Shown piece after piece: positions 24,761 through 27,074 of a stretch of DNA of 64,000 nt. Every line of letters begins with the position of its first letter. Position 1 is the stretch's first letter. Source of the stretch: Deltaproteobacteria bacterium (lineage in GTDB: Bacteria > Desulfobacterota > DSM-4660 > Desulfatiglandales > Desulfatiglandaceae); assembly GCA_019307815.1 (NCBI GenBank), contig JAFDIV010000009.1, forward strand, positions 1 through 64,000, given 5' to 3'. The translations under genes and the position numbers were made by a program. The notes under the pieces are model-generated. The model was not told where the DNA came from and searched no databases. It saw only the letters and a program-made list of their open reading frames with translations.

Positions 24761-25324
24761 CTGGTCACCTCCAGCTTATCTAGTTCCCAGCCATAAATCA
24801 GAGGATTCATGACTGGAGCCATTAGCGGCATGAAGTATCTTTGCAGTTTCTACATTGAATAGAGGAAAAACACAACTGGAAATTATATGCCTCCACATAT
24901 GGGCTCCCACGCTGTTAATGCAAAATAGCTCCCTTTGTTTTGTTCCCCACTTCCATGGATATTGACAACAGGCAAAGTGCTTTGCAAGAATACCTAATCC
25001 GGACAAAGCGGAAATGGCAAAGGTCAAAGATCAAATGTCGAAGAAAAAAGCGACTCGCCCCGCGCTGTATACAAGCCCCTTCTAACCAGCGGGCAGGCGG
25101 GTATCAGTGCTCAGCCCTCAGCTATGAGTTCAAGATTGTCTGCCATTAAAGATTCATTTGACATTGATTTGACATTTGGATTTTGGCATTTGGCATTAAA
25201 TACGATGACACAAAAAATTCTTTACGCATTCTAAATACAAACTTAGTAATAAGGCACTAACTTTTAGTGATACGAAAACTTTCGATTTATGAACTGATAC
25301 TATCTTGATCTGGAGTTGCATCCT
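24761..25324. other. Divergent gene-free region
   Basis: About 560 bases between hbd and the thymidylate synthase gene, which point away from each other. It holds an incomplete CCTGCC-type repeat unit at 25079-25098 (GCGGGCAGGCGGG) and AT-rich sequence before 25310. No small gene was recognised. Promoters for both neighbours are expected, but I could not place them with confidence. Confidence 0.45.
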
Positions 25325-26020
25325 ATGAAATTGGAATTCATTGAAGCAAGGGACCTCCCTGACGCGTGGTTTCAATGTGTTTACCGGATTCTGGACTCAG
25401 GCCGTGACTACGTCATCGACAGAGGGAGCTATAAAGGACAAAAACGCCTGGAATTCGACTACGTGACCATCCATATTAAGTATCCGGGCGTTAGACCCCT
25501 GCTGCCGGACATCCCCCCCTCTCTAGGCGTACCCAACCCTGTAGCTGAGGGCTACTTGGAAGAGTACCTCCCTTATCTGATGACATCAGCAAAGCAGCCG
25601 GGAGAGGACTACACTTATGGCCAATATCTGGAGCACCAGATTGCAGAGGTTATCCGCATGTACAAGGAAGATGGCTATGGCACCAACCAGGCCTATATGA
25701 CCGTTGGTGATCCCCAGTCCATCTACCTGAAGGACCCCCCATGCCTGCGAGGAATAGATACTCGGATAAGGGATGGCAAGCTCCACTTTGTTGTCTATTT
25801 CCGCTCCTGGGACCTCTGGAATGGGTTTCCGGCAAATCTGGGGGCCATTCAATTGCTGAAAGAGTATATGGCCTCTAGCATTGGGGTGGAGGACGGTGAA
25901 ATCATAGCCGCAAGCAAAGGGCTTCATCTGTACGACTATGTGTGGGAGCTGGCAAAGCTGAGAACTATGCGTCAGAACCCTTCTGCACTCAATTCCGCTG
26001 AAGGTTGCGATGAAAACTGA
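25325..26020 (+). CDS. Thymidylate synthase, methanogen-like (small) type
   Basis: 231 residues from ATG 25325, nine bases after GGAG. Shorter than ThyA of E. coli (264), it resembles the archaeal MJ0511-type thymidylate synthase. Key segments are DSGRDYVIDRGSYKG, then DPPCLRG with the putative nucleophile Cys near residue 140. VVYFRSWDLWNGFPANLGAIQ follows, matching the dUMP-binding R-S-x-D...G-x-P-x-N pattern, and SKGLHLYDYVWEL holds the H-x-Y nucleotide contacts. The methyl donor in this type is less certain than for ThyA. It overlaps rlmN by 11 bases. Confidence 0.8.
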   Translation: MKLEFIEARDLPDAWFQCVYRILDSGRDYVIDRGSYKGQKRLEFDYVTIHIKYPGVRPLLPDIPPSLGVPNPVAEGYLEEYLPYLMTSAKQPGEDYTYGQYLEHQIAEVIRMYKEDGYGTNQAYMTVGDPQSIYLKDPPCLRGIDTRIRDGKLHFVVYFRSWDLWNGFPANLGAIQLLKEYMASSIGVEDGEIIAASKGLHLYDYVWELAKLRTMRQNPSALNSAEGCDEN

Positions 26021-27074
26021 TTCCTTGACCTCAAACTCTTCCATAGGTCTCAAAGGATTGGACTTGGCTGAAACCGAGGCCTGGGCCCAGAGCCAGGGCC
26101 TTCCTGCCTATCGTGGCCGTCAAATCAGGCGCTGGATATTCACTAAGGGCGCCCACTCTTTTGAGCAAATGACGGACCTGCCAAAGACCCTAAGACAAAC
26201 CCTGGCCAAAAGCGTCACACTAAACCACCTGGAGACAGTGGACATCCTTAAGTCCAGGGACGGCACCAAGAAGTTTATCTTTCGACTGCATGATGGGCTA
26301 TTAATCGAATCGGTCCTGATTCCTGAACGAGACCACCTGACCCTTTGCATATCCTCACAAGTAGGATGTGCCATAGGCTGCCGTTTCTGCCTTACTGGGG
26401 CTCGCGGCCTCAAGAGAAATCTAAGCACTGCGGAAATTGTCGATCAAGTCGTCCAGGTCAGGTCGACTCTTCCTGAACCTGAACACCTTAAGAATATCGT
26501 GCTCATGGGAATGGGTGAACCGCTTGCCAACTATCATAATGTAATTAAGGCCCTCGGCAACTTAACCCGGGAAGACGGCATGAATTTTTCCAATAGAAGG
26601 GTTACCCTGTCCACATCAGGCCTGGTACCTGAAATGGAGAAATTAGGGCAGGATATTACGGTTAATTTAGCCGTGTCTCTAAATGCCACGGACGACAAGA
26701 CACGTAGCTTTCTGATGCCAATTAACGATAGGTATCCTATTGCTGCTCTGATCCAGGCCTGCAAGGCATTCCCACTGCCCAACAGGCGCATGATCACGTT
26801 TGAATATATTTTGATCAAAGGGATAAACGACTCCCTTGAAGACGCACAAAGACTCGTAAAACTCTTGAAAGGCCTTAGGGCCAAAGTGAACCTAATACCC
26901 TTCAACCCACATCCAGGGGTGGACTTTAGACCTAGTCCCATGGAAAGGATTCTTCAGTTCCAAGAAGTCCTCACAGGAGATTACCTCACGGCAATCATCC
27001 GCAAGAGCAAGGGACCTGACATCATGGCTGCCTGCGGCCAGTTGGGTGGGTCAAGCAATAGGGGAATCCAGTAG
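26010..27074 (+). CDS. rlmN: 23S rRNA/tRNA (adenine-C2)-methyltransferase
   Basis: 354 residues. RlmN methylates A2503 of 23S rRNA and A37 of some tRNAs by a radical SAM mechanism through a methyl-cysteine. The cluster cysteines are C120, C124 and C127 in SQVGCAIGCRFCLTG. The methyl-accepting Cys is in GPDIMAACGQLGG near the C-terminus. VLMGMGEPLANY and VTLSTSGLVPEM are SAM-site strands. The start lies within the upstream thymidylate synthase gene, so the two are translationally coupled. The next gene is 180 bases on. Confidence 0.96.
   Translation: MKTDSLTSNSSIGLKGLDLAETEAWAQSQGLPAYRGRQIRRWIFTKGAHSFEQMTDLPKTLRQTLAKSVTLNHLETVDILKSRDGTKKFIFRLHDGLLIESVLIPERDHLTLCISSQVGCAIGCRFCLTGARGLKRNLSTAEIVDQVVQVRSTLPEPEHLKNIVLMGMGEPLANYHNVIKALGNLTREDGMNFSNRRVTLSTSGLVPEMEKLGQDITVNLAVSLNATDDKTRSFLMPINDRYPIAALIQACKAFPLPNRRMITFEYILIKGINDSLEDAQRLVKLLKGLRAKVNLIPFNPHPGVDFRPSPMERILQFQEVLTGDYLTAIIRKSKGPDIMAACGQLGGSSNRGIQ

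Follow-up and report, generated by a model that had tools for sequence, protein, structure and literature searches.

The window, i.e., the entire 64,000-nucleotide stretch of DNA analysed here, carries on its forward strand a compact gene of the thymidylate synthase (TS) fold, which belongs to a distinct lineage (hereafter clade A) and runs directly into rlmN. The residue counts given with the features below refer to 198 unique sequences among 209 TS-like rows from clade-A-type loci; 83 of these 209 rows were placed in clade A by a quick tree and the remainder were assigned by locus.

25312–25315, + strand: GGAG, a possible ribosome-binding site 9 bases 5' of the ATG, as read from the sequence
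25325–26020, + strand: clade-A TS gene, 231 codons (231 amino acids), ATG at 25325, TGA at 26018–26020
25685–25690, + strand: codons of Asn121-Gln122, the clade-A signature at the Arg-pair site (both residues in 196/198)
25742–25744, + strand: codon of the catalytic Cys140 in a PPC motif (Cys in 198/198)
25802–25813, + strand: codons of Arg160-Ser161-Trp162-Asp163, the RSxD motif (R and S in 198/198, D in 197/198)
25835–25837, + strand: codon of Asn171 (Asn in 197/198; Asp in one, the second TS-like frame of viral locus L126)
25925–25933, + strand: codons of His201-x-Tyr203 (His and Tyr in 198/198 each)
26010–27074, + strand: rlmN, encoding a dual-specificity RNA methyltransferase (TIGR00048 match) and overlapping the TS gene

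The overlap reported in the first-pass annotation of this DNA was borne out: the TS stop codon ends at 26020 and rlmN starts at 26010, so that the two genes share exactly 11 bases (26010–26020). The downstream gene is an ordinary rlmN above the curated cut-off (TIGR00048, 398.5 bits versus 290). Among 200 loci examined, 12 featured an rlmN-like frame. The open frames of TS and rlmN overlap in eight of the 200 (including the window), all from families f1 and f2; a further f1 locus has a gap of 773 bases, two loci from other families show gaps of 1.3–1.4 kb, and in one locus the rlmN-like frame lies 5 kb off on the opposite strand. Direct adjacency was hence seen only in the family and order of the window and consequently carries little information on TS function, which led us to reject a functional tie between TS and rlmN.

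The best NCBIfam match of the 231-residue protein is TIGR03283 (thy_syn_methano; 90.5 bits, E-value 9.6e-26), with residues 5–207 aligned to positions 2–198, i.e., to nearly the whole profile. The cut-off of 174.55 is not reached, the score amounting to about half of it, and is passed by none of the 297 genomes of the window's phylum in our sample. PF00303 is passed (38.1 bits versus a cut-off of 24.3) by a match spanning residues 110–226. ThyA models align the protein only from about residue 104 onward, and the classical ones stay below their cut-offs (TIGR03284, 32.8 versus 108.35 bits; PRK01827 models, 30.1–38.3 versus 325–405 bits); PF02511 (ThyX) gave no match to the window protein. Sequence matches in the PDB are TS by name, both among the best 60 of 121 listed, except for three chains called ORF70, and among the best 60 of 141 listed for the family alignment, and in both lists they cover the C-terminal half only. 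Based on the TIGR03283 E-value, the PF00303 score and the predicted fold, the TS assignment is far above chance.

This fold was predicted by an AF2 monomer model, for which 55 aligned sequences served as input; the model displays a TS fold with a mean pLDDT of 92.6 and a pTM of 0.88. Ranked by Foldseek E-value, TS chains take places 1 and 2 and the phage dCMP hydroxylase AfhB places 3 and 6. By VIA-align Z, AfhB comes first (9iqu, 24.4; 9iqc with FAD, 23.9), followed by MilA at about 21–21.5 (5jnh, 21.5) and by ThyA structures at about 19–20 (192–195 residues, rmsd 2.0–2.3), and the first rank of the compact AfhB by Z may partly be due to its size. Curated score, fold and catalytic residues together establish membership in the thymidylate synthase superfamily.

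The catalytic residues are kept, as is to be expected of the TS proposed in the first-pass annotation: the whole site (Cys, Arg-Ser, Asp, Asn, His and Tyr) is present in 196 of the 198 unique clade-A sequences. We take Cys140 to be the TS catalytic Cys, the RSxD motif to form the phosphate and pterin side, and Asn171 to be the uracil-reading Asn of TS. Cytosine-specific TS relatives have Asp at the base-reading position; this AfhB/MilA-type Asp is absent from the window protein, which has Asn. The Asn121-Gln122 pair presumably occupies the position of R126/R127 of E. coli TS, which reach the phosphate from the partner subunit. Asn121 and Gln122 are each found in 197/198 clade-A sequences. In the 54 non-clade-A rows of the alignment (137 rows, 83 of them clade A), column 121 holds Arg in 51 and Lys in 3, and column 122 holds Arg or Lys in 48 and Ala, Ser or Gln in six archaeal rows. 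Other basic residues are conserved throughout clade A, namely Arg41 (198/198), Arg142 (194/198) and Lys198 (196/198). In the alignment, the window protein has no counterpart to the Glu58 segment or the C-terminal segment of ThyA. Since these two segments and the Arg pair, whose roles we assign from E. coli TS, are without counterpart, substrate and cofactor binding must differ from ThyA. PDB titles list L. casei TS structures of R178T, R179T and the double mutant, and loss of the Arg pair is thus at least compatible with the TS fold. Such Arg-pair mutants are reported to stay active.

Phylogenetically, clade A forms a group of its own. A quick tree of 137 rows united 83 of them in clade A with a support of 99; by origin, 45 of these rows belong to the window's phylum, 22 are viral, 12 come from Omnitrophota, 3 from Bacillota and 1 from an archaeon. 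A careful tree of 59 rows, 31 of them clade A, gave support values of 100/97 for clade A and 100/100 for ThyA. In the careful tree, the ThyA rows, which served as outgroup, stand apart with all other groups on the far side. Both trees separate clade A from the archaeal references, which stem from one archaeal phylum (42 of 80 genomes matched, 3 of 80 over the TIGR03283 cut-off) and do not include Methanocaldococcus itself. The "methanogen-like" label of the first-pass annotation consequently holds in part: in profile, the protein resembles the methanogen type more closely than bacterial ThyA and does not group with ThyA, but it remains below the TIGR03283 cut-off and falls outside the archaeal group, in a separate clade. 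The shared N-terminal half and the scores favour the archaeal TS as the nearer relative of clade A, although, with long branches in the tree and ThyA as outgroup, the branching order of clade A, archaeal TS and ThyA is tentative. Viral and bacterial rows are intermixed, with 14 changes of the viral label in the quick tree, which suggests transfer.

Clade A is widespread. Within GTDB genomes, at least 577 stretches encode a relative. The 80 loci kept form a sample shaped by the query alignment and by its patterns; judging by their titles, 67 come from Omnitrophota, 3 from Bacillota and 1 from an archaeon. Contigs labelled viral in their collection contributed 169 stretches, of which again 80 loci were kept. 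Plasmid records gave 1 and 22 matches and phage records 316, all below 60% identity. From 40 of the 80 viral loci, 159 adjacent frames were chosen and 116 of them scanned with Pfam, revealing two thymidylate kinases, two NDK, DNA polymerase, RecA and one ribonucleotide reductase; the thymidylate kinase genes lie directly upstream of the viral TS in L146 and L172. A second TS-like frame shares a viral locus with TS in L126 (1486–2253) and also in L127; the L126 frame reads Asp where the base is recognised and carries Arg at 122, and it may encode a cytidine-nucleotide enzyme beside the TS. Transfer of a putative thyA, with no type named, has been described for Patescibacteria (PMC12455944).

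In our sample of 297 genomes from the window's phylum, 102 had TIGR03283 matches. Three with classical ThyA (PF00303 >370 bits) and three odd or partial cases (G025, G030 and G094) were set aside, and the remaining 96 were typed by hit table, using frame length and profile range: 69 are clade A, six B type (about 300 residues), 20 C type (about 500 residues) and one other. Of the 69 clade-A genomes, 46 were read as sequence and the others by hit table. The expectation of the first-pass annotation that a small-type TS would be unusual in bacteria was therefore not upheld, given these 69 of 297 genomes, the prevalence of Omnitrophota among the kept loci and the occurrence on viral contigs.

ThyX is encoded by 188 of the 297 genomes and classical ThyA by three. 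The TIGR03283-type genomes mostly lack ThyX (81/96; Fisher p 6e-33, kinship ignored), and so do those of clade A (59/69), with ThyX present in 178 of the 228 others (Fisher p 9e-22, kinship ignored). At the family level, 35 families have one of these TS, 66 have ThyX and 12 have both. Families f18, f23 and f31 each comprise one clade-A genome without ThyX beside 7, 1 and 6 ThyX-only genomes, respectively, the clade-A genome of f31 being a single contig listed as 100% complete; f91 shows the same swap pattern with a C-type gene. Clade A thus appears to take the place of ThyX or ThyA in many anaerobes. It need not be the only TS of a genome, as ThyX accompanies it in 10 of the 69 phylum genomes and, among the 26 clade-A genomes to which 26 of the 80 kept GTDB loci led, in 9. 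An earlier COG-based count assigned ThyA to 11 and ThyX to 17 of 28 deltaproteobacteria (PMC5954106); because classical ThyA is found in only 3 of 297 genomes here, versus 11 of 28 there, the former number may hold clade-A or C-type genes counted as ThyA.

For the window's own genome, the first-pass annotation had proposed a search for thyA, thyX and dihydrofolate reductase (DHFR). The assembly is 98% complete, and profile searches detected neither ThyX nor classical ThyA nor a FolA-type DHFR in it; the one PF00303 match is the sole TS candidate found. With 75 contigs and 5.34% contamination, these absences are strong, yet not final. The TS gene is single in this genome and probably essential.

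Separately, none of the TS kinds searched for had a match in 24 of the 297 genomes, some of which are listed as 98–100% complete, and thymidine kinase exceeded its cut-off in only one of these 24. G208 and G252 of the window's order, as well as locus L282, lacked matches to ThyA, ThyX, clade-A TS and thymidine kinase, with DHFR and MCH present; thymidine kinase is thereby ruled out as an explanation for G208 and G252, and among the frames of at least 120 codons around the DHFR gene of G208 no TS was recognised.

The missing DHFR extends further. FolA (PF00186) occurs in 21 of the 297 phylum genomes: in all three with classical ThyA, in none of the 69 clade-A and six B-type genomes, in 3 of 20 C-type genomes and in 13 of 188 with ThyX. 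The 26 genomes reached through kept GTDB loci, some of which are also in the phylum set, likewise yielded no FolA match. The difference between classical ThyA (3/3) and the TIGR03283 types (3/96) has a Fisher p of 1e-4, with very few ThyA genomes underlying it. The absence of FolA hence reaches well beyond clade A, and the unusual part is a TS-fold enzyme without FolA. Many bacteria are without recognisable DHFR, and most of those use ThyX rather than ThyA, although some DHFR activity is still required in them (PMC1971073). The same source names a fusion of DHFR to FolP in Helicobacter pylori (PMC1971073); the single FolP-type match in the window's genome (302 bits), in contrast, is a 282-codon frame which we judged unfused, located between ftsH- and coaX-like frames (named by eye).

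Besides FolP, the genome encodes FTHFS (720 bits); in the window's order, 9 of 10 clade-A genomes had a match to it, G070 being the exception. The methanopterin marker MCH had no match in the window's genome or in any of these ten. Moreover, 75 loci, chiefly from Omnitrophota, were not assigned to the phylum of the window, and in 30 of them genes of one cluster lie about 5 kb upstream of the TS; the one representative scanned with Pfam is a pterin-binding (DHPS) protein. Tetrahydrofolate is thus the probable C1 carrier, given FTHFS and FolP, the lack of an MCH match and these DHPS-type neighbours of the TS. Methanopterin is disfavoured, and the non-folate pterin considered in the first-pass annotation finds no support in the window's genome.

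We therefore consider it likely that the gene encodes a working TS converting dUMP to dTMP, and that it represents a distinct lineage replacing ThyX or ThyA in many anaerobes and also present on viral contigs. This view draws on the fold, the conserved site, the clade, the distribution and the lack of matches to known rivals and to the FolA partner. The product would most likely be dTMP, favoured by the thymidylate kinase adjoining the viral TS in L146 and L172, with folate most likely serving as carrier and as source of the hydride. Judging from the conserved residues, Cys140 would attack C6 of dUMP; Asn171, His201 and Tyr203 would hold base and sugar, and the phosphate would be held by Arg160-Ser161, with Arg41, Arg142 or Lys198 substituting for the missing Arg pair. 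5,10-Methylene-tetrahydrofolate would then donate the C1 unit and most likely also the hydride, leaving dihydrofolate to a reductase different from FolA.

The absence of FolA from clade-A genomes (0/69 and 0/26) sits badly with ordinary ThyA chemistry, all three classical ThyA genomes having FolA. It could be accounted for by a TS which does not oxidise the tetrahydropterin, i.e., which takes the methylene group from folate and electrons from another donor (flavin, ferredoxin or NADPH), a strategy that ThyX follows with a different fold. The missing Glu58 segment and closing C-terminus would fit such an enzyme, as would the FAD-bound TS-fold enzyme (9iqc, Z 23.9) among the nearest folds by Z. 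However, FolA is rare across the phylum (21/297) and absent from 175 of 188 ThyX genomes, so that another dihydrofolate reductase may serve all of them, and the best PDB sequence matches are TS, the 60 of 141 listed including no AfhB. We therefore regard a non-oxidising mechanism as rather unlikely. Doubtful, too, is the wider picture that would follow, namely a third mechanistic class of TS, which uses the tetrahydrofolate methylene group and another electron donor without forming dihydrofolate, and which has spread among anaerobes and viruses and replaced ThyX several times.

Far less probable is a nucleotide hydroxymethylase or hydroxylase of the TS fold (dCMP or CMP type) instead of a TS: AfhB and MilA do lead the ranking by Z and viral copies exist, but 197 of 198 sequences read the base with Asn, as in uracil-specific TS, no TS candidate other than clade A was found in many genomes, and two viral copies adjoin thymidylate kinase. 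Acquisition of a methanogen-type TS from archaea, using tetrahydromethanopterin or another modified pterin, would agree with TIGR03283 as best NCBIfam match over nearly the whole profile, but was rejected as highly improbable in view of the score below cut-off, the separate clade (100/97), and FTHFS and FolP alongside 0/10 MCH matches in the order.

If our preferred reading of clade A as a folate-dependent TS is confirmed, several consequences follow. The synthesis of dTMP is essential and usually described as relying on ThyA or ThyX, yet many anaerobes appear to use neither in its classical form and instead have a divergent TS that lacks the phosphate-binding Arg pair and has no FolA beside it. 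Confirmation would supply a step missing from metabolic models of these anaerobes and of Omnitrophota, allow the old question of folate metabolism without DHFR to be tested on a single small enzyme, and identify a viral metabolic gene. A search of the open PMC literature, mostly by title and abstract, returned no description of the lineage, and clade A is apparently an undescribed TS branch. For the related enzymes, experimental work on archaeal TS is stated not to have been followed up (PMC9931769), and the biochemistry of methanogen ThyA is described as much less known (PMC9012536).

Further TS-like types were met alongside clade A. The C type (e.g., L011, L016, L002 and L006), counted in 20 of 297 genomes by hit table, combines an MtrA-like region (weak matches), a TS domain and a subsequent PF14251 domain (PterinBD-DUF4346) in the three proteins scanned; for DUF4346, no paper was found in the open PMC literature. 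The site residues Asp, His and Tyr are replaced in 16 of 17 C-type rows, yet 18 of the 20 genomes lack ThyX. The archaeal phylum searched likewise has such long frames, of about 500 codons. In G162, G187 and G211, a second diverged TS-like gene accompanies the C type, with a weak DHFR match (about 54 bits). The B type (L003, L005, L007, L010, L013 and L014; about 300 residues) keeps the Arg pair and forms its own branch in both trees, and three of its six genomes also have ThyX. Small archaeal TS relatives (L206, L208, L213–L217, L219 and L222) have Gly, Ser or Ala in place of the catalytic Cys, which is replaced in 9 of 10 archaeal small rows, depending on the alignment. Finally, a 449-codon frame with a divergent TS domain (L039) was found in G025, a genome which also has ThyX.

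Compared with known systems, clade A shares with the methanogen-type TS (TIGR03283) a compact TS without the ThyA C-terminus, the N-terminal half, RSxD, Asn and, as seen in archaeal fusion-type rows, mostly Cys, His and Tyr. It differs in scoring about half of the cut-off, in forming its own clade and in having Asn-Gln instead of the Arg pair, and the host of the window's gene has folate genes and no MCH match. With classical ThyA (PF00303, TIGR03284), it has the fold (Z about 20) and the catalytic residues in common, whereas sequence profile similarity of the window protein is confined to the C-terminal half and the Arg pair, the Glu58 segment, the C-terminus and the FolA partner are lacking in clade A. 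ThyX (PF02511) probably catalyses the same metabolic step and swaps with clade A between genomes of a family, but is a different protein family, to which the window protein has no match. The nearest solved folds by Z are AfhB of phage HY126 (9iqu and 9iqc), which is of similar length (chains of 217 and 234 residues) and absent from the best 60 of 141 PDB sequence matches listed for the clade-A family, and the CMP hydroxymethylase MilA (5jnh); according to their PDB titles both act on cytidine nucleotides, whereas clade A features the uracil-type Asn.
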